Shown: positions 1 through 39,768 of the stretch, piece by piece
Layout: every line of letters begins with the position of its first letter
Numbering within the stretch: the stretch's first letter is position 1
Origin: Synechococcus sp. MVIR-18-1
GTDB taxonomy: Bacteria; Cyanobacteriota; Cyanobacteriia; PCC-6307; Cyanobiaceae
Length of the DNA: 64,000 bases
Direction of reading: 5' to 3'
Assembly: GCF_014279835.1 (NCBI RefSeq)
Contig: NZ_CP047942.1
Location: forward strand, 372,001-436,000
Made by a program: the position numbers and the translations under genes
Notes under the pieces: generated by a model
Told to the model about the DNA's origin: nothing
Seen by the model: the letters and a program-made list of their open reading frames with translations, nothing else
Databases searched by the model: none

Positions 1-1
1 G

Positions 2-652
2 AACTTGGTGCTGGCGATGGGGCTTTGGGATCCGATGATTTCGACCCTCGCACTGGTGTTGACGGCATCATTCTTGGCCTTGCTGATTGGTCTCCCTCTG
101 GGGGTGCTATCAGCGCGTCTTCAGTCGGTTTGGCGATTGTTACGACCTTGCCTTGACCTCATGCAGACCATGCCGGCTTTTGTGTATTTGATTCCCGCGG
201 TGATGTTGTTCAGCACAGGTGCTGTTCCAGCAATCATCGCCACCTTGGTGTTTGCAATGCCGCCGGTGGTTCGTCTCACCCAGCTCGGGATTCGTCAGGT
301 TCCACTTGATCTCATTGAGGCGGGTCGTGCTTTTGGGTGCAGTGAGTTGCAATTGCTATGGAAGGTGCAGATGCCGAGTGCTTTGCCCACGGTGATGAGT
401 GGCGTCAATCAAACGATCATGCTGGCGTTATCGATGGTGGTGATCGCCTCGATGATTGGTGGAGGCGGCCTGGGTGATGTCGTGCTGCGCGGCATTCAAC
501 AGCTGGATGTGGGCCTTGGTTTTGAGGGCGGGATTGCCGTTGTGATTCTCGCTGTGATCCTCGATCGACTCAGTCAGAGCTTGATGCTTGAAGGCGAGAG
601 GACGTTGGAAGCGCGCTCCCGTCGGTGGCGTTCGCTGTGGAGGACACCATGA
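2..652 (+). CDS. proW: Glycine betaine/proline ABC transporter permease (ProW-like), 5' end missing
   Basis: This is the inner-membrane permease of an osmoprotectant importer that would work with an ATPase (expected upstream, outside the window) and the binding protein that follows. The reading frame is open to the left edge, so the N-terminus is missing; the visible part is about 216 residues. It is strongly hydrophobic and carries the permease EAA loop ([20 protein letters not shown]) followed by a segment rich in small residues ([11 protein letters not shown]), as in ProW/OpuAB proteins. Its stop codon overlaps the start of the next gene as ATGA, which points to translational coupling. The ligand is inferred from family likeness; choline or proline betaine are alternatives. 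Confidence 0.88.
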
Positions 653-1626
653 CAGCTCCTCTTTGGCGTCGACGTGCCGTTTTGCTGTCAGGGCTCGGTT
701 TGGCTGCGGCTTCCCTATCCAGCCAAGTGCGCTTGAGCCGGCAGCGCCAGGCTGACGCCACCGCACCTACGTCTTCCACGCAAAAAGGCTTCGCCTCACA
801 ATTGGACCCTGAGGGGTCTCAATCGGGCGCAACAGGGCCATTGCGCTTGGGATGGTCTCCATGGGCTGATGCTGAAGTGATGAGCTTGATCGCCCAGCGG
901 GTGATTCAGCAGGCTTACAACCTCCCAGTCGAGCGGGTGATGGCGGATATCGGCATTCAGTACGCCTCTGTAGCAAGAGGCGATCTCGATCTCATGCTGA
1001 TGGCCTGGTTGCCTTTAACGCACAAGGATTATTGGACGCGCGTGCGTGACAGGGTGCTTGATTTCGGTTCGATGTATTCCGGTCGCCTTGGCTGGGTTGT
1101 ACCCGATTACGTGGATGCCTCTGAGCTTCGCTCTATCGCTGATTTGCGCAAGCCTGAACTGGCGGCGCGGTTCGACAACACGGTTCAAGGCATTGACCCA
1201 GGGTCAGGGCTTAATCAGGCCTCTGAACAGGCGTTGGTGGACTACAACCTGGGTGACATGCGCCTGGTTGCCTCCAGTAGCGCAGCGATGACAGCTGTTC
1301 TTGATAAAGCAATTCGAGAGCAACGTTGGGTGGTGGTCACAAGTTGGACTCCGCACTGGATGTTTGCTCGCTACAAGCTCCGCTTCTTGGAAGATCCCCA
1401 GCTCGTTTTTGGTGGAGTGGAGTGGATTCATGCCTTAGGTCGAAAGGGTTTGGATCGCGACCATCCAGATCTGGCCGGATTCCTCTCGCGTTTTCAGATC
1501 CCTGATCGTGAACTCTCTGATTTGCTTCTCATGGCTAATGAGCGATCGGCCGATGTGGCAGTCGAGGACTACCTCGATCGTCATCCGGCCCGAATTCGCT
1601 ACTGGACCACTGGAATGATCAGCTGA
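649..1626 (+). CDS. proX: Glycine betaine ABC transporter substrate-binding protein (ProX/OpuAC type)
   Basis: This is the periplasmic binding component that should deliver glycine betaine or a similar quaternary amine to the preceding permease. The 325-residue protein starts at the ATG that overlaps the permease stop (ATGA). A longer in-frame GTG start at 625 exists, but the short form puts an arginine-rich export signal ([18 protein letters not shown]) at the very N-terminus. The RRR followed by a hydrophobic stretch could be a Tat signal. The body matches the OpuAC domain: [13 protein letters not shown] near residue 67 and aromatic residues ([13 protein letters not shown]) of the kind that form the cation-binding box. 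It converges on gpgS with only a 16-base gap. Confidence 0.88.
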
Positions 1627-1642
1627 AAAGCACAAGCTGGTG

Positions 1643-2923
1643 TCATGCCGCTGCCGCAGGACGTCTTGGTGGACAAGCCATCAGGGGGCGATGGTGATGA
1701 CGTCGTGGCGTTCTGTTGGGTGCTGTCGTGATGTTGCGTTGCTGGCCTGCTTCGGCAAGGTCTGCTTGTAAGCGTTCGGTGCAACACAGCAACCTCGACC
1801 AACTCGGCAGCTGATGGGCCACGGGAGCTGCCATCAATTCCTCCACTCTGGGACGCAACAAGGTGGCGAAGCTCTGGACAGCAAGCTCCTCGCTGTGTCG
1901 GTTGTAAGGCAGACGATTAATTGTTGAATCCAAGCCAAACTGCTGAACACGGTCTTCCCCTACCCGTCGGAACAGCACTTCCAGCGTTGGGATCTGGTCT
2001 GAAGACAACATCCGACCTTCATGCTCCATGAGTCCACGAAGCACCGTGGCAAAAATTTCACCGGCCATGCGTTGCAGGCCCTCGGAAGGAGCATTGCCAA
2101 GTGTTTTGTGCTTGTGATCAAACAGTCCGAGGTCCACTTGGGCGATGCGTCGAGGGGCCACATGGCGATACACCTCCGAAAGCAAGCCGATCTCCAGTCC
2201 CCAGTCGGAAGGAATGCGCAAATTCATGGCCAGATCTCTGGTGAACGCGAACTCGCCGGCTAACGGGTAGCGAAAGGATTGGAGATAGCGCAGATAAGGC
2301 ATTGGGCCAAAGATCTGCTCCAGGCTGGTGAGCAGTGGACCTACGAAAAGGCGTGTTGCTCTTCCATGGAGCGTCTGGGTTTCGAGCGAAAGGCGGCTGT
2401 AGAACGCTTTCACATAGGCCACACCAAGCGAGGGATCGAGTAACGGTCGCAGCATTCTTTGGGGGTAGGCCGGTGAAAAGGTGCGAATGTCGGCATCGAA
2501 GAGTCCAACGATCTCAGCGTTTCTGCAAGCCACACCAAGCCCTTGCCAAACAGCCCAGCCTTTCCCAGGTGGTCCGGTCACATTGAGGCCAAGGGTCTGA
2601 AGTGACTGCAGTGATTCGGCAACGGCGGGGCCATTGGTCCAGTGCACTCTCACCGGAAATGGCATACCCGAAAAGAACGCTTCCGCTGCAGCGACGTCTT
2701 CGCTGGTTTCCGCTGACAGCGCGATCACGAGTTCTTCCAGGCCGCTTAGTTCTGCCAGAACCTCACGGATCAGTCCGAGTGCAGGACGGCTGAATTCCTC
2801 CATGAGGCATGGGATCAGCAAGGAGGTTGGCCGTTGCTTCAGCTGACGCCGAAAGTCTGGGAGGTCCAGCTTGCCGAGTCCGTAATCATGAATCGTGGCG
2901 ATTAATCCCTGCTGAAAATCCAT
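1643..2923 (-). CDS. gpgS: Glucosyl-3-phosphoglycerate synthase
   Basis: This enzyme transfers glucose from a nucleotide sugar to 3-phosphoglycerate, the first step in making the compatible solute glucosylglycerate. The 426-residue protein is a GT-A glycosyltransferase. It opens with MDFQQGLIATIHDYGLGKLD, has a nucleotide-sugar and metal motif DAD at 144-146, and the GPPGKGWAVWQG segment near 117-128. I chose the ATG at 2923; two upstream in-frame starts (2965, 2989) would run into the divergent gene and look unlike the family. The last 40 residues (RRHHHRPLMACPPRRPAAAA) are basic, low in complexity and probably disordered. It is divergent from a phosphorylase-phosphatase pair, and that context supports the glucosylglycerate role. 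Confidence 0.88.
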   Translation of the reverse strand: MDFQQGLIATIHDYGLGKLDLPDFRRQLKQRPTSLLIPCLMEEFSRPALGLIREVLAELSGLEELVIALSAETSEDVAAAEAFFSGMPFPVRVHWTNGPAVAESLQSLQTLGLNVTGPPGKGWAVWQGLGVACRNAEIVGLFDADIRTFSPAYPQRMLRPLLDPSLGVAYVKAFYSRLSLETQTLHGRATRLFVGPLLTSLEQIFGPMPYLRYLQSFRYPLAGEFAFTRDLAMNLRIPSDWGLEIGLLSEVYRHVAPRRIAQVDLGLFDHKHKTLGNAPSEGLQRMAGEIFATVLRGLMEHEGRMLSSDQIPTLEVLFRRVGEDRVQQFGLDSTINRLPYNRHSEELAVQSFATLLRPRVEELMAAPVAHQLPSWSRLLCCTERLQADLAEAGQQRNITTAPNRTPRRHHHRPLMACPPRRPAAAA

Positions 2924-3005
2924 GCGGTGATCAATGCGACAACAATTTGCGGAGCTCTGTTCCATACCTGTTGCACTTGGCAAAGGCACGGTGTCGAAGC
3001 AGTTA
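2924..3005. promoter_or_regulatory. Divergent intergenic region between gpgS and the GH13 phosphorylase
   Basis: These 82 bases must hold the 5' control signals for both arms of the osmolyte locus. I could not pick a convincing -35/-10 pair or operator by eye. An NtcA-like GTA-N8-TAC site is not evident. The assignment rests on position only. Confidence 0.4.
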
Positions 3006-4754
3006 ATGGCGCATGAGGGGTTGCCATCGCTTCTAAAGGAGCTCTACGAGCATCATTCTTCGGAGGATCTCAATCTGCTGTCGTCGCAATTGCTGCATTC
3101 CGAGCAGTCCGCGTCAGAGATTGCCGTTTCAGAGTCGCTCGATGATGGGAGTACGGATGCAACGGCAACGGGTGCGCGTTGGGATTCCTCGAGTTGTGTG
3201 TTAATTGCCTACGCCGATACGGTGAGCGCCAAGGATCAGCCTGGGCTTCGTTGTTTGCAGGCCCTCCTCCAGAAGCATTTCAACGGGATCTCATCGGTCG
3301 TGCACGTTTTGCCCTTCTTGCGCGCAACCAGTGATGGAGGTTTTGCTGTTGCCAGTCATGAGGAGATTGAGCAACGCTTCGGCGATTGGAATGACTTGGC
3401 CGCGTTAGCGGAAGGTCGCCAGTTGATGGCTGATCTGGTTCTTAATCACATTTCAGCGTCTCACCCCTGGGTGCGGGCTTTTCTGAAAGGAGAACAGCCT
3501 GGCGCTCAATGTGTGTTGGCAGCTGCTCCCAACCCTTGTTGGGACAACGTGGTGCGTCCACGTAGCTCGGCTCTTTTCACCACTCTGGCGACAGATCGGG
3601 GCCCCGAAACGGTCTGGACCACGTTTGGACCCGATCAAGTGGATGTGAACTGGCGAGAGCCTGAAGTGTTGCTTGGATTCACACGCCTCCTCGATCTTTT
3701 TGTCAGTTATGGCGTCCAATGGTTGCGCCTTGATGCCGTGGGGTTTGTTTGGAAACAGCCTTCCAGTGACTGCATCCATCAGCCGCAGGCCCACCGGTTG
3801 GTTGAAGTGTTGCGTCTTCTCTTGGAGTCGCGATGTCCTCAAGGAGTGGTGGTAACGGAAACGAATGTTCCCGAGCAGGAAAATCTGTCTTATTTGGCCA
3901 CTGGATCCGAAGCTCACCTCGCCTACAACTTCCCTTTACCCCCGCTGGTCCTCGAGGCCTGTCTCAGTCGTCGTGCTGATCTGTTGAACAACTGGCTGGC
4001 GCGTTGGCCCCAGCTCCCTCAGCAGACAGGGCTGCTCAATTTCACGGCCTGTCATGACGGGATTGGCTTGCGGCCACTCGAGGGTTTGATGGAATCGGAG
4101 CGTTTGCTCCAGTTGCTGCAGCAATGCGAGCAGCGGGGTGGTTTGGTGAGTCACCGGCGCTTGGCCGATGGTCTGGAGGTTCCCTATGAAATCAATATCA
4201 GCTGGTGGAGTGCCATGGCGGCTCCTGGGCGGGATCCATCACACCATCAACGAGCGCGTTTTTTGTTGACGCAGTTGCTGCTGCTTGCGTTGCCCGGTGT
4301 GCCTGCGTTCTATCTGCCGGCTTTACTGGCAACCCCGAATGACAATGCTCGCTTTCGTATCAGCGGTCATCGCCGCGATCTCAATCGTCCTCAGTTTCAA
4401 CTCGACCGTTTAGAGCGATTATTGGCTGATTCCGAAAGCGATACCAGTCAGGTGGTGGTGTCACTGCAACAAGCGATGGCTGTTCGTCGTGGGCTGGCGG
4501 CCTTAGATCCCTTTGCCCCAATGACGGTCCTGAGCGAAGGCCGCTCTGATCTCGTGATTCTGCAAAGGGGAGAAGGGGCAAGCACTCTGTTTGCGGTTCA
4601 CAATTTCAGTGATGTCCGCCTCAGTTTCCCGTTGAGCTCCCTTGCTGATTCCACAGAATCTGGTTGGCATGACGTGTTGAACGGGCATTCTCTTGTTGCG
4701 GGCCAAACGGCTCTCGAGCTTGAGCCGTTTGCTGTGCATTGGTTGATTCGATGA
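3006..4754 (+). CDS. GH13 sucrose phosphorylase-family enzyme, probable glucosylglycerate phosphorylase
   Basis: The enzyme belongs to the retaining alpha-glucosyl phosphorylase branch of family GH13, which splits or forms alpha-glucosides with phosphate and glucose 1-phosphate. The 582-residue protein has the family motifs in order: DLVLNHIS (143-150), RLDAVGF with nucleophile D243, VVTETNVPEQENLSYL with acid/base E285, and ACHDGIGLRP with the transition-state aspartate D351. The start is the ATG at 3006; an upstream ATG at 2934 would overlap the gpgS start. The stop overlaps the next start as ATGA. Sucrose phosphorylases share these motifs, so substrate cannot be read from them. Placement between a glucosylglycerate synthase and its phosphatase makes glucosylglycerate the likely substrate; sucrose or glucosylglycerol are alternatives. 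Confidence 0.8.
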   Translation: MAHEGLPSLLKELYEHHSSEDLNLLSSQLLHSEQSASEIAVSESLDDGSTDATATGARWDSSSCVLIAYADTVSAKDQPGLRCLQALLQKHFNGISSVVHVLPFLRATSDGGFAVASHEEIEQRFGDWNDLAALAEGRQLMADLVLNHISASHPWVRAFLKGEQPGAQCVLAAAPNPCWDNVVRPRSSALFTTLATDRGPETVWTTFGPDQVDVNWREPEVLLGFTRLLDLFVSYGVQWLRLDAVGFVWKQPSSDCIHQPQAHRLVEVLRLLLESRCPQGVVVTETNVPEQENLSYLATGSEAHLAYNFPLPPLVLEACLSRRADLLNNWLARWPQLPQQTGLLNFTACHDGIGLRPLEGLMESERLLQLLQQCEQRGGLVSHRRLADGLEVPYEINISWWSAMAAPGRDPSHHQRARFLLTQLLLLALPGVPAFYLPALLATPNDNARFRISGHRRDLNRPQFQLDRLERLLADSESDTSQVVVSLQQAMAVRRGLAALDPFAPMTVLSEGRSDLVILQRGEGASTLFAVHNFSDVRLSFPLSSLADSTESGWHDVLNGHSLVAGQTALELEPFAVHWLIR

Positions 4755-5560
4755 ATAAAACAGATGCTCTCCCCTCAATTCCCTGGTGGGTTGTGACCGA
4801 TCTCGATGGGACCCTCATGGACCATGCCTACAACTGGGAGCCTGCACGGGAGGCGATCCGTGGCTTGCAGCTGCAGGGCATTCCCGTGATTCCGTGTACG
4901 AGCAAAACGGCTGAGGAGGTGAAAAGTTTTAGGGCTGCAGCTGGGTTGAAGGATCCGTTCATCGTTGAAAACGGAGGTGCTGTGCATGGGGAAACCAGTG
5001 ATGGCGAGTTATGGGAACTTGCGCTGGGATGCCCTGTTGCGGAGCTTCGCCCGGTTTTGCAAGAGCTTGCGCAGCTGCTCAGTGAGCCGTTGCAACCGAT
5101 TGATGCGCTTTCGGATCAAGAGGCCTTGGACTTTCTTGGCCTGCAGGGCGAAGCGCTGCAGTTGGCGTGCAAGAGGCGTTGGAGTTTGCCCTTTGTGCCC
5201 CCTTCTGCGTCAGCGCGGCAACGGTTGCCAGACCTCGCCAACCGGCTTGGTTTCGCTGTTGTACAGGGCAACCGTATGGGTCACCTACTCGGCGCAGAGG
5301 TCAGCAAGGGTCGAGCCCTTGAGGTCTTGAAGCAGCGCAATGGTGGCTCCCCCGTGCGGGTGCTCGCATTGGGTGACTCTCCCAATGACCAGCCCCTCCT
5401 CGAGGCTGGTGATCTCTCAGTCGTTGTGCCTGGTGCGAATGGTCCCCATCCGATCTTTGCCGACGCCCTTGCTCAAGGCCGCTACCAGTTGGCGCCTGCT
5501 TGCCATGCGCAGGGCTGGGCAGAGGCGGTGTTTGAGCACGTCCTCAACGCACAATGCTGA
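4751..5560 (+). CDS. gpgP: Glucosyl/mannosyl-3-phosphoglycerate phosphatase (HAD-IIB)
   Basis: This enzyme removes phosphate from glucosyl-3-phosphoglycerate to give glucosylglycerate, the second step after GpgS. The 269-residue HAD protein shows motif I as VTDLDGTLMDH (nucleophile D in DLDGT), motif II as PCTSKTAEEV, the family segment FIVENGGAVHG, a K in VSKGRAL, and motif IV as ALGDSPNDQPLLEAGD. These fit the mannosyl-3-phosphoglycerate phosphatase subfamily, whose cyanobacterial members serve glucosylglycerate synthesis. The ATG overlaps the phosphorylase stop by four bases, so the two should be made together. A TTG 12 bases upstream is a weaker start. Confidence 0.87.
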   Translation: MNKTDALPSIPWWVVTDLDGTLMDHAYNWEPAREAIRGLQLQGIPVIPCTSKTAEEVKSFRAAAGLKDPFIVENGGAVHGETSDGELWELALGCPVAELRPVLQELAQLLSEPLQPIDALSDQEALDFLGLQGEALQLACKRRWSLPFVPPSASARQRLPDLANRLGFAVVQGNRMGHLLGAEVSKGRALEVLKQRNGGSPVRVLALGDSPNDQPLLEAGDLSVVVPGANGPHPIFADALAQGRYQLAPACHAQGWAEAVFEHVLNAQC

Positions 5561-5649
5561 TGCTGAATCCTTCACTCTTTTCTTTAAAGACCCAGTGAAG
5601 ATCTGCCTTGAACGGGAGCAGACTTGATCAGAGACATGATCGAGGACGG

Positions 5650-6072
5650 ATGACAGCGATTCAATGCCAATACACCGGTGACTTGCATTGCACGGCTCAG
5701 CACGGACCCTCGGGCACCGTCCTCAAGACCGATGCGCCCACTGATCATGATGGCCTTGGCGAAAGTTTTTCGCCGACTGACCTGTTGGCGACAGCCCTTG
5801 GAACATGCATCTTGACGATCATGGGGATCGCCGCACGCCGCCGCGGCTGGGACCTCGTTGATGCCAACGTCAGCGTTGAAAAAACAATGACGACCGAGGG
5901 ACCGCGCCGCATTGAAAGCCTTCAAGCTCAGATCAGCCTCCCTGTTTCTCTTAGTCAGGAACAAAAGGCCTTGTTGAAGCGGGTCGCGAATGATTGCCCT
6001 GTGAAACGAAACCTCGACGCTTCAATCACGATTGATTTGATCTGGAGCGACGCAAGTTCTACGGCTCTCTAG
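5650..6072 (+). CDS. OsmC/Ohr family peroxide-reducing protein
   Basis: OsmC-type proteins are small cytosolic thiol peroxidases that reduce organic hydroperoxides. The 140-residue protein has both redox cysteines: C53 in ALGTCILTIMG and C116 in ANDCPVKRNL. The SPTDLLATALG segment before the first cysteine is also typical. I chose the ATG at 5650; an upstream in-frame start at 5608 adds a non-conserved arginine/aspartate-rich stretch. It lies 89 bases after gpgP in the same direction, and founding members of the family are osmotically induced, so shared salt control is plausible but not shown. Confidence 0.85.
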   Translation: MTAIQCQYTGDLHCTAQHGPSGTVLKTDAPTDHDGLGESFSPTDLLATALGTCILTIMGIAARRRGWDLVDANVSVEKTMTTEGPRRIESLQAQISLPVSLSQEQKALLKRVANDCPVKRNLDASITIDLIWSDASSTAL

Positions 6073-6108
6073 TTGTTTTATCAACGCCATTCAGGCGAGG
6101 AGATTTTG

Positions 6109-6594
6109 ATGAGACTTCAATTCATACCTATTCATGTCTTTCGTGAAACACCGTCTGTCACCTTTTTTGATGCAGGAGTGCCTGGTACCAATGGAACAGA
6201 TGTTGTGTTCCACAGGGGTGCAGCGACATCACCACCCGATGTGAATGGATTTGAGCAGTACTACGTCCATCAGCATCAAGTGGATCACAATTTGGTGCTC
6301 GAGGGGCAGCGCACCTTCGTCCTTTTAAATCCTGCATGGGATCAGTCCCATCACGTCATTCATTTGATCCGCGAGATGGGTGCGCTTCAGATACCGGTAG
6401 GGACCTATCACCGCTCAACGTCTGGTGAAACAGGAAGCATGGTGTTGAACCAATCGCTGCGTGATCCCCAGTTTGATTTCAAGACGGAGTTCATTCCCGT
6501 GAGTTTGGAGGGTCGAGAAGATCTTCGACAGGCACAAGCCTCTGTTCCATGGGTATGGAGTTGGAAAGACGGCCACATTTGCCGTTTTCATTGA
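6109..6594 (+). CDS. Small cupin-like protein of unknown function
   Basis: I do not recognise a specific family. The 161-residue protein looks like a single cupin barrel: HQHQVDHNLVLEGQ near residues 57-70 resembles cupin motif 1, with two histidines plus a later glutamate, and IPVGTYHRSTSGETGSMV near 100-117 fits motif 2. The start is the ATG at 6109, which has a GAGGAG ribosome-binding site about nine bases upstream; an earlier in-frame ATG at 6073 lacks one. It faces the end of psbA across a shared terminator hairpin. Function is open; metal binding is likely from the histidines. Confidence 0.6.
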   Translation: MRLQFIPIHVFRETPSVTFFDAGVPGTNGTDVVFHRGAATSPPDVNGFEQYYVHQHQVDHNLVLEGQRTFVLLNPAWDQSHHVIHLIREMGALQIPVGTYHRSTSGETGSMVLNQSLRDPQFDFKTEFIPVSLEGREDLRQAQASVPWVWSWKDGHICRFH

Positions 6595-6660
6595 TCTAAT
6601 TGCTCTGGCGTAAGTCTTGTGATCGTTTTTTCTGTGTTGTTGAGGAAGAAAGGAAGGCAC

Positions 6661-6691
6661 AAAAAAGCCCCCTCTGTGAGGAGGGGGCTTT
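6661..6691 (-). terminator. psbA transcription terminator, possibly bidirectional
   Basis: An 11-base perfect stem (AAAGCCCCCTC at 6664-6674 with GAGGGGGCTTT at 6681-6691) encloses a six-base loop. On the minus strand it lies 38 bases after the psbA stop and its 3' side runs into six T residues. It may also end transcripts from the plus-strand cupin gene. Confidence 0.88.
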
Positions 6692-6728
6692 CTAGTTCAG
6701 TTGATCTGAACTTTGAAGGGGTTCCAGA

Positions 6729-7808
6729 TCAACCGATTGCAGGTGCTTGAAGTGCCACAGGTGTGGACTCAGCAGCTGCCAGGTCGAGGGGGAAGTTATG
6801 AGCGTTGCGCTCGTGCATCACTTCCATACCAAGTCCAGCTCTGTTAAGAACGTCGGCCCAGGTGTTCAGGACGCGGCCCTGACCATCAAGGATTGACTGG
6901 TTGAAGTTGAAGCCGTTCAAGTTGAAGGCCATGGTTGACACGCCAAGGGCGGTGAACCAGATGCCGACCACAGGCCAGGCTGCAAGGAAGAAGTGAAGGC
7001 TACGGCTGTTGTTGAACGAGGCGTATTGGAAGATCAGGCGACCGAAGTAGCCGTGAGCAGCCACGATGTTGTACGTCTCTTCTTCTTGGCCGAACTTATA
7101 GCCGTAGTTCTGGGACTCGGTCTCGGTTGTTTCACGAACCAAGGATGAGGTCACCAATGAACCGTGCATGGCGGAGAACAGTGAACCACCGAAGACACCA
7201 GCCACTCCAAGCATGTGGAAGGGGTGCATCAGGATGTTGTGCTCAGCCTGGAAGACCAACATGTAGTTGAAGGTTCCAGAGATGCCCAAAGGCATGGCGT
7301 CAGAGAAAGAACCCTGACCGAAGGGGTAGACCAGGAACACTGCAGATGCAGCAGCAACAGGTGCGCTGTATGCAACACAGATCCAAGGGCGCATGCCCAA
7401 GCGGTAGGAAAGTTCCCACTCACGTCCCATATAGGCGTAGATGCCGATCAGGAAGTGGAAGACAACCAGTTGGAAAGGACCGCCGTTGTAGAGCCACTCG
7501 TCGAGTGAGGCAGCTTCCCAGATTGGGTAGAAGTGCAAGCCAATGGCGTTGCTGGAAGGAACAACAGCACCAGAGATGATGTTGTTGCCATACATCAGTG
7601 AACCTGCAACAGGCTCGCGGATGCCGTCGATATCAACCGGAGGAGCGGCGATAAAAGCAACGATGAAGCAAGTGGTAGCGGCAAGCAGTGTGGGGATCAT
7701 CAACACACCGAACCAACCGACATAAAGACGGTTGTTGGTGGAGGTGACCCACTCACAGAACTGCTGCCAGCCGTTAGCGCCGGAGCGCTGCTGGATGGTG
7801 GTAGTCAT
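6729..7808 (-). CDS. psbA: Photosystem II D1 protein, D1:2 (Glu130) form
   Basis: D1 is the thylakoid reaction-centre subunit of photosystem II that carries the water-oxidising Mn cluster ligands and the QB site. The 359-residue protein is complete with the usual 359-360 residue length. Key residues are visible at standard positions: Y161 (TyrZ), D170, H190, H198, H215, S264, H332, E333 and D342, with the processing site after A344. Residue 130 is glutamate (YMGRE), which marks the D1:2 form; glutamine here marks D1:1. In freshwater and marine Synechococcus, D1:2 genes are induced by high light. It is divergent from a radical SAM gene across 163 bases. Other psbA copies are expected elsewhere in the genome. 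Confidence 0.98.
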
Positions 7809-7971
7809 GAGAACGGAAAAGAAGGTCTCGCAAGGAGACGGTTACGGAAGGGCAGGACGCCCTGCCGGATGCATTGTAAAGCAAGTTTGCGGTTTGTAAC
7901 CACTTATTCATGCGGTAATCCTTAAGCCCGCTGCCGGGCGTTGCAGCAGATGCAGTTGTTAGCGTCCGCAA
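7809..7971. promoter_or_regulatory. psbA promoter and 5' leader, shared with divergent radical SAM gene
   Basis: On the minus strand TACAAT (7873-7878) is a good -10 box, with GTTACA (7895-7900) sixteen bases further upstream as a weak -35. This would give a psbA leader of about 55-60 bases. The leader holds two small hairpins: GGCAGG/CCTGCC at 7851-7866 and GTCTC/GAGAC at 7825-7839, the second close to the start codon. There is no strong Shine-Dalgarno sequence before psbA. A third hairpin, GCCCG/CGGGC near 7927-7940, lies toward the radical SAM gene. Confidence 0.55.
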
Positions 7972-37083: not shown

Positions 37084-37464
37084 TCTGAATGGCTCCACTT
37101 CTCAGGTCCAGGGCACTGGCTGAGTATTAATTAGAGAAAGAAAATAAGAGGATTGTTGATATCTTTCTATCTTTATTGGGAGGGTTTCGCTGACACCACC
37201 TGTAAACCAGACCCCAGTTGCAGACTGGTTCGCCACCGGATTGAACCTTTGTAACTCGATGATGGTTTAGGCCCTCTCGTGACTCTATGCTCGAATCAGC
37301 GGTCCCCTCTTTGGGGCCCAAAGCACCAGTGATGACCAGGGTTTTCCTGGCTTGAGCTGGCGCCCGGCTAAAGCCTTCGGGTTATGGCCGGGGCCCCGGC
37401 GAACTGTCCGGTTCTCCGGAGGGGTGGCCCTCCACCTCGATCCCGTCCCTCGAGGAACGACTCG
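37084..37464 (+). promoter_or_regulatory. psaA upstream region and structured leader, likely psaA RNA motif
   Basis: The first 200 bases are AT-rich and should hold the psaA promoter, though I cannot fix -10/-35 boxes. From 37301 a run of hairpins leads to the start codon: GGTCCCC/GGGGCC (37301-37318), CCAGG/CCTGG (37336-37350), CCCGGC/GCCGGG (37363-37392) with an inner C(TTCG)G tetraloop stem at 37374-37381, TCCGG/CCGGA with loop TTCT (37407-37420), and GGAGGG/CCCTCC (37418-37433), which overlaps the previous one. A published cyanobacterial psaA RNA motif has several hairpins with UNCG loops before psaA; the position and the TTCG loop fit it. The last two hairpins exclude each other, as a switch would need. 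Confidence 0.6.
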
Positions 37465-39768
37465 ATGACCATTAGCCCACCAGAGCGTGGGAGCACCGCG
37501 AAGAGCCAAGTCGAAAAGGTTGACAATCCAGCAACCTTTGAATTGTTCGGCAAGCCCGGACATTTCGACCGATCTCTCGCGAAAGGCCCCAAGACCACAA
37601 CCTGGGTTTGGAACCTCCACGCCAACGCTCACGATTTCGATAGTCATACGAGTGACCTTGAAGAGGTTTCTCGGAAGATCTTTAGTGCTCACTTCGGCCA
37701 TTTGGCCGTGATCTTCATCTGGCTAAGCGGCGCCTTCTTCCACGGAGCCCGCTTCTCCAACTTCTCCGGCTGGCTCGCCGATCCCACCCACGTGAAGCCA
37801 AGTGCTCAGGTGGTGTGGCCCGTGTTTGGCCAGGAGATTCTCAACGGTGATATGGGTGCCGGTTTCCAAGGCATTCAGATCACTTCTGGCCTCTTTCACG
37901 TCTGGCGTGCATGGGGCATCACCAATGAGACCCAGCTGATGTCGCTTGCCATCGGCGCTCTGGTGATGGCCGGTCTCATGCTCAATGCCGGTGTCTTCCA
38001 CTATCACAAGGCAGCTCCCAAGCTCGAGTGGTTCCAGAACGTTGAGTCGATGCTCAACCACCACTTGGCAGGTTTGCTCGGTCTCGGTTCACTCTCCTGG
38101 ACCGGTCACCTACTGCATGTTTCTCTGCCGACAACCAAGTTGATGGATGCCATCGACGCCGGCCAGCCGCTGGTGCTCAATGGCAAGACCATTGCTTCTG
38201 TCGCAGACATTCCACTGCCCCATGAATTCTTTAACCAGGATTTGATCGCGCAGCTCTATCCAGGATTTGGTGCCGGTATCGGTGCCTTCTTCTCTGGTGA
38301 TTGGGCTGCCTACAGCGACTTCCTGACCTTTAAAGGTGGAATTAATCCAGTCACAGGAAGCATGTGGATGAGCGATATCGCTCATCACCACCTTGCCATT
38401 GCGGTTCTGTTCATCGTGGCTGGTCACATGTACCGCACGAACTGGGGCATCGGGCACTCCATCAAGGAGATCCTCGAAGGTCAGAAGGGTGATCCCCTCC
38501 TGTTCCCTGCCACCAAGGGTCATGACGGACTCTTTGAGTTCATGACGACCTCTTGGCATGCTCAGTTGGGCGTCAACTTGGCCATGCTCGGTTCGCTGAG
38601 CATCATCGTGGCCCAGCACATGTATGCGATGCCTCCGTATCCATACATGGCGATTGACTACCCGACTCAGATCGGACTGTTCACCCACCACATGTGGATC
38701 GGTGGTTTCCTAATCGTTGGCGCTGCTGCTCACGCAGCCATCGCCATGATTCGCGATTACGACCCTGCCAAGCATGTGGATAACGTGCTCGATCGTGTGC
38801 TCAAAGCTCGCGATGCCCTGATCAGCCACCTGAACTGGGTGTGCATTTGGTTGGGCTTCCATAGCTTTGGCCTCTACATCCACAACGACACAATGCGTGC
38901 TCTGGGGCGTCCCCAGGACATGTTTAGTGACTCAGCGATTCAGCTGAAGCCCGTGTTCGCTCAGTGGATCCAGGGTTTGCATGCCGGAGCTGCCGGTAGC
39001 ACCGCTCCTAACGCACTTGCTGGCGTTAGCGAAGTGTTCAACGGCTCCACGATTGCCGTTGGTGGCAAGGTTGCTGCTGCAGCGATTCCTCTTGGGACCG
39101 CTGACTTCATGGTGCACCACATCCACGCATTCACGATTCACGTGACTGTGTTGATCCTTCTCAAAGGTGTGCTCTATGCCCGTAGCTCCCGCCTCGTTCC
39201 AGATAAAGCAAACCTGGGCTTCCGCTTCCCTTGCGACGGACCCGGCCGAGGTGGCACCTGTCAGGTGTCTGCTTGGGACCATGTGTTCCTAGGCCTGTTC
39301 TGGATGTACAACTCCCTGTCCATCGTGATTTTCCACTTCAGCTGGAAAATGCAAAGCGATGTTTGGGGAACTGTGAATGCTGATGGCAGTGTCCAACACA
39401 TCACGAATGGCAACTTCGCCAACAGCGCAATCACCATTAATGGCTGGCTGCGTGACTACCTGTGGGCTCAGGCCGCGCAGGTGATCAACAGCTACGGCTC
39501 GAACACCAGTGCCTATGGCCTGATGTTCCTTGGTGCTCACTTTGTCTGGGCCTTCAGCTTGATGTTCTTGTTCAGTGGCCGCGGCTACTGGCAGGAATTG
39601 ATTGAGTCCATCGTTTGGGCTCACAACAAGCTGAAGGTGGCACCTGCCATCCAGCCCCGTGCGCTGTCCATCACCCAGGGCCGTGCCGTGGGTGTCGCTC
39701 ATTACCTCTTGGGCGGCATCGCGACCACATGGGCCTTCTTCCACGCCCACATCCTTGTGGTCGGCTGA
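37465..39768 (+). CDS. psaA: Photosystem I P700 apoprotein A1
   Basis: PsaA and PsaB form the photosystem I core that carries P700, A0, A1 and, between them, the FX cluster. The 767-residue protein has eleven membrane helices and the FX ligand loop [18 protein letters not shown] with its two cysteines. The start is the ATG at 37465 ([11 protein letters not shown]) with GAGGAACG upstream; the frame continues back to 37384, but that part is leader RNA. psaB follows after 21 bases. Confidence 0.99.

Follow-up and report, generated by a model that had tools for sequence, protein, structure and literature searches.

A marine Synechococcus locus for glucosylglycerate synthesis and probable phosphorolytic recycling, next to a glycine betaine importer

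The 64,000-nucleotide stretch analyzed here (hereafter the window) belongs to a genome assembled as one contig of 2.45 Mb and related to marine Synechococcus and Prochlorococcus. We consider it very probable from sequence evidence (probability of about 0.9) that the window carries the standard marine picocyanobacterial locus for making and recycling glucosylglycerate, and that its GH13 enzyme is a glucosylglycerate phosphorylase (GGaP, EC 2.4.1.352, GH13_18). In the proposed pathway, GpgS would transfer the glucose of a nucleotide sugar to 3-phosphoglycerate and GpgP would then dephosphorylate the product to glucosylglycerate. From glucosylglycerate and phosphate, the GH13 enzyme would produce glucose 1-phosphate and D-glycerate, and a plant-type D-glycerate 3-kinase would return the glycerate to 3-phosphoglycerate. 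Glucosylglycerate would serve as an osmolyte and also as a store of carbon that holds no nitrogen and can be recovered, and the products of gbmt1/2 and proVWX would make and recapture glycine betaine. We infer glucosylglycerate as the substrate, phosphorolysis as the chemistry, the direction of the reaction in the cell and the role in turnover.

Gene order and gene assignments

The glycine betaine importer begins upstream of the window, where proV and proW lie on the plus strand and gbmt2 and gbmt1 on the minus strand, together with a cupin gene, so the importer adjoins the glycine betaine synthesis pair. The full order is gbmt2< gbmt1< proV> proW> proX> gpgS< GH13> gpgP>. Within the window are the remainder of the permease gene proW (2..652, plus strand; BPD_transp_1, E 8e-30), whose start lies upstream, and proX (649..1626, plus strand; OpuAC, E 5e-60), which encodes the binding protein with a twin-arginine-like leader and has a longest open reading frame from a GTG at 625. 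These are followed by gpgS (1643..2923, minus strand), ggaP, also called gmgG (3006..4754, plus strand), and gpgP (4751..5560, plus strand). The first-pass annotation had described gpgS as transcribed away from a GH13-gpgP pair joined by an ATGA overlap, and open reading frame positions, strands and family matches bore out this arrangement, with the overlap located at 4751-4754.

The gpgS frame opens at 2923 with a conserved MDFQQG and closes with a stop at 1643. The longest open reading frames of gpgS (from GTG 2989) and the GH13 gene (from ATG 2934) overlap head to head; the starts favoured by relatives are ATG 2923 for gpgS and ATG 3006 or GTG 2991 for the GH13 gene, which leave a divergent gap of 67-82 bp.

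The gpgS product, a glucosyl-3-phosphoglycerate synthase with PGKG and DAD motifs, had GpgS as its best NCBIfam model (E 1e-111) and matched GpgS structures (E 8e-17). Its score of 373.6 bits was below the curated GpgS_Meth cut-off of 700, as was that of a Prochlorococcus ortholog (401.9 bits). The gpgP product, a glucosyl-3-phosphoglycerate phosphatase of the HAD superfamily and MPGP family, exceeded the curated cut-offs of the MPGP-family models (NF001217, 422 bits vs. 373; TIGR01486, 269 vs. 165). One model that the phosphatase clears is named mannosyl-3-phosphoglycerate phosphatase, which might suggest that the locus makes mannosylglycerate rather than glucosylglycerate, but that name may only reflect the shared family. 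On the synthase side, the matching models are GpgS and the matching structures are mainly GpgS, and published work on marine picocyanobacteria takes glucosylglycerate to be their solute, so a mannosylglycerate product is extremely improbable.

The ProU-type importer is complete, with an ATPase, a permease and an OpuAC binding protein; proV was over the TIGR01186 cut-off, and proW and proX were adjacent to it. The full proW gene had its best matches to choline/ProW permease models, below their cut-offs, and the nearest solved structures to ProX were OpuAC. ProX orthologs from marine Synechococcus MITS9220 and WH8102 bind only glycine betaine, and ProX of this family has been linked to gbmt1/2 (PMC10087775). 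By analogy with these two proteins, and with the OpuAC match, the window ProX appears to be rightly assigned as glycine betaine-binding, and the earlier description of a glycine betaine importer beside the locus holds.

The order gpgS< GH13> gpgP> was detected in 122 fetched loci, nearly all from Synechococcus and Prochlorococcus, and such recurrence shows that it is not a chance arrangement. Three of the 122 were pieces from a second cyanobacterial family, and two further picocyanobacterial pieces had the GH13 gene next to gpgS but no gpgP. The proX gene adjoined gpgS in the window and in two close relatives, a count to which the flanks of most fetched loci were too short to contribute; it was absent from all four Synechococcus loci printed with 6 kb flanks. 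Matches to 'proV' around Prochlorococcus loci looked spurious, and the ABC protein in the one inspected (L046) was exporter-like. A plasmid megablast of the locus returned no match.

Several other cyanobacterial families contained GH13 homologs with the TETN and PYE motifs and no gpgS or gpgP nearby (e.g., L137, L138, L139, L141, and L143). These homologs may recycle an imported solute, or the synthesis genes may lie elsewhere. In one locus (L007, genome G034), a GH13 ortholog 94% identical to that of the window lacks one base, with a frame shift near residue 64; either the gene is broken or the base was missed in sequencing. GH13 homologs with 33-36% identity are also encoded by unannotated 'Listeria phage' contigs (OR848242, OR848156, OR846735, and others), which are probably host DNA.

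Active-site residues and phylogeny of the GH13 enzyme

Glucosylglycerate phosphorylases are recognized by (T/S)ETN at the acid/base loop and a Glu in loop A (PMC7178133), the latter also given in a second study (PMC6720575). In the alignment, the window GH13 protein has both: TETN, which includes the acid/base Glu, at T308-E309-T310-N311 (codons at 3855..3866, plus strand), and P417-Y418-E419 in loop A (4182..4190, plus strand), where Y418 corresponds to Tyr344 and a Glu replaces Gln345. TETN and PYE occurred in 134/134 aligned rows of this GH13 type, a count that includes the window protein and E. coli YcjM and a few sequences fetched twice. Four sucrose phosphorylases had IEVH, VEIH or PEIH at the acid/base loop and YQ in loop A, and four amylosucrases had AEAI at the acid/base loop and lacked both signatures. 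The acceptor-loop comparison had been set beforehand as a refutation test for the phosphorylase assignment; the window protein did not match sucrose phosphorylases throughout.

A sucrose phosphorylase, or an enzyme with another specificity such as sucrose 6-phosphate or glucosylglycerol, is highly unlikely. Sucrose phosphorylase was the best NCBIfam model for the GH13 protein (E 1e-37), yet the score was far below the cut-off. Loop A and the acid/base loop are unlike the published motifs of these enzymes; the sucrose phosphorylase loop-A motif is N(L/V)D(I/L/V)YQ, and the window protein has EVPYEIN. The adjoining genes are glucosylglycerate genes, and phylogeny excluded sucrose phosphorylase: in a reduced tree, the window GH13 protein and YcjM grouped at 100/100 against sucrose phosphorylases. 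They also grouped at 100/100 against amylosucrases in a separate reduced tree. Reduced trees were made because the tree with both outgroups had long-branch problems.

The question of hydrolysis versus phosphorolysis turns on other residues. The middle gene is labelled gmgG in one study (PMC7522525), called a glucosidase in another (PMC9361551) and labelled a glucosidase in Cyanorak, and a glucosyl/mannosylglycerate glucosidase would yield free glucose along with glycerate, in place of glucose 1-phosphate. In keeping with a hydrolase, the top PDB sequence scores and nearest folds of the GH13 protein were amylosucrase and sucrose hydrolase and not the short sucrose phosphorylases. The predicted model (mean pLDDT 81.9) has an N-terminal helical part that is absent from the short sucrose phosphorylases, and this part is probably the reason for the amylosucrase-like scores and folds. 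On membership of the amylosucrase/sucrose hydrolase group (GH13_4) the evidence points both ways: overall sequence and fold lie nearest to it, but active-site motifs and the tree without sucrose phosphorylases place the protein outside. Arg135 and Tyr344 of the Bifidobacterium sucrose phosphorylase bind phosphate (PMC7178133). The window residues R208-P209-R210 (606-residue numbering; 3555..3563, plus strand) aligned with Arg133-Pro134-Arg135 of the B. adolescentis enzyme, so that R210 and Y418 match the two phosphate-binding residues, neither of which is present in the four amylosucrases; two of the sucrose phosphorylases aligned as KRK at the first site, which makes the Arg135 column less secure for them. 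A search of this genome for glucosylglycerate hydrolases with the Pfam family PF22422 gave no match. With the phosphate-binding residues kept and the grouping with YcjM, a hydrolase is unlikely.

A glucosylglycerate phosphorylase thus remains the preferred assignment. YcjM, with which the window protein shares 34% identity over 526 positions, has been reported as a strict glucosylglycerate phosphorylase (PMC7178133). A 2024 review (PMC11009771) lists characterized glucosylglycerate phosphorylases from Allomeiothermus, Spirochaeta and E. coli alone, with none from cyanobacteria. The initial proposal that the GH13 protein is specific for glucosylglycerate is supported by TETN, the loop-A Glu and the YcjM grouping, features of sequence that point to glucosylglycerate as the probable substrate.

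Glycerate kinase linkage and control of the locus

The gene directly 3' of gpgP in Prochlorococcus MIT 9302 matched solved D-glycerate 3-kinases (E 2e-17). A D-glycerate 3-kinase gene lay right after gpgP (e.g., L046:8562-9506) in 70/70 Prochlorococcus loci that had at least 1300 bases beyond gpgP, and in 0/5 Synechococcus loci. With the Prochlorococcus protein as query, a plant-type kinase homolog was detected elsewhere in the genome of the window (C1:1148314; 38% identity; E 2e-15 to a D-glycerate 3-kinase structure). The classic glycerate kinase families PF02595 and PF13660 had no member in this genome, and PF00485 had two matches, the weaker of which was a uridine-kinase-like protein. The kinase linkage agrees with a phosphorolytic route in which 3-phosphoglycerate is then recovered, and glucosylglycerate recycling in Prochlorococcus NATL2A has been drawn to glucose 1-phosphate and 3-phosphoglycerate (PMC11631117). 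The linkage does not discriminate between phosphorylase and hydrolase, since both release glycerate. A limited literature search found no paper on the linkage of the kinase to gpgP in Prochlorococcus.

The separate control of turnover and synthesis, suggested by the divergent arrangement, has mixed support in published work. In dark-tolerant Prochlorococcus NATL2A, synthesis transcripts decreased and recycling transcripts increased (PMC11631117), in agreement with separate control. In Synechococcus WH7803, gpgS and gpgP both increased under high light (PMC7393227), which is partly against it; gpgP is expected to be on the same transcript as the GH13 gene. The GpgS protein of WH8102 was grouped with nitrogen-stress proteins (PMC11020310).

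The divergent gap (2924..3005) is conserved in its first part: the 47 bp upstream of gpgS (2924-2970) are strongly conserved across Synechococcus with approximately 60% identical GH13 proteins. The conserved blocks include CAACA and CATACC and matched no known element. The short gap and the conserved first ~47 bp indicate that the gpgS and ggaP promoters probably overlap. No NtcA box was detected near gpgS, and the three matches elsewhere in the window were within shuffle expectation. A sigma-70-type promoter scan of 1..7000 gave no match, and an Rfam search across the locus detected nothing except PhotoRC-I upstream of psbA. Known cis-regulatory RNAs in the window include this PhotoRC-I element (7825-7867, minus strand) and a psaA RNA (37284-37468, plus strand).

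One speculative possibility, which we consider doubtful, is that the locus works as a two-way valve. Here gpgS and ggaP-gpgP would share the short conserved promoter region and be switched oppositely, and the recovery of glucosylglycerate as glucose 1-phosphate and, via glycerate kinase, 3-phosphoglycerate would be controlled apart from synthesis. Glucosylglycerate might then buffer the carbon supply in the dark or when nitrogen availability changes.

Comparison with known glucosylglycerate loci

The locus and its arrangement have already been published and are ordinary for marine picocyanobacteria. The genes gpgS, gpgP and gmgG were present in all marine cluster-5 picocyanobacteria surveyed (PMC9361551), and earlier studies of PCC 7002 (PMC10873239) and Prochlorococcus (PMC11631117) already take the GH13 enzyme to be a glucosylglycerate phosphorylase. 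Our analysis adds the observed linkage of a glycerate kinase gene to gpgP in Prochlorococcus and residue-level support that favours phosphorylase over glucosidase, so that, where a core gene has carried two conflicting names, ggaP is favoured over gmgG. Very abundant marine phototrophs use glucosylglycerate as a solute that contains no nitrogen, and whether they break it down by phosphorolysis, which saves energy, or by hydrolysis bears on their carbon economy.

A close likeness is to the marine Synechococcus island Syn_GI022, in which gpgS-gmgG-gpgP lies beside gbmt1/2-proVWX (PMC7522525) with the gene sets and adjacency seen here; gbmt1-2/proVWX was reported beside the glucosylglycerate cluster 'in some strains.' The middle gene of that island carries the gmgG label, whereas the residues of the window protein favour a phosphorylase. 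In PCC 7002 (SYNPCC7002_A2021-A2023; PMC10873239), where the GH13 gene is named GGAP, and in WH8102 (SYNW2436-2434, listed as SYNW2434-2436; PMC2874817), gpgS, the GH13 gene and gpgP have consecutive locus tags, as here, a likeness drawn by description. No betaine genes were reported alongside these two clusters, and proVWX of WH8102 is SYNW1915-1917. The glucosylglycerate operon of Prochlorococcus NATL2A (PMC11631117) has synthesis and recycling genes together, as in the window, but the Prochlorococcus loci examined have the D-glycerate 3-kinase gene after gpgP, where the window has an OsmC gene. E. coli YcjM (GH13_18) shares the TETN, PYE and RPR motifs and its clade with the window GH13 protein, but at 34% identity, and its gene belongs to another operon, which lacks gpgS and gpgP.
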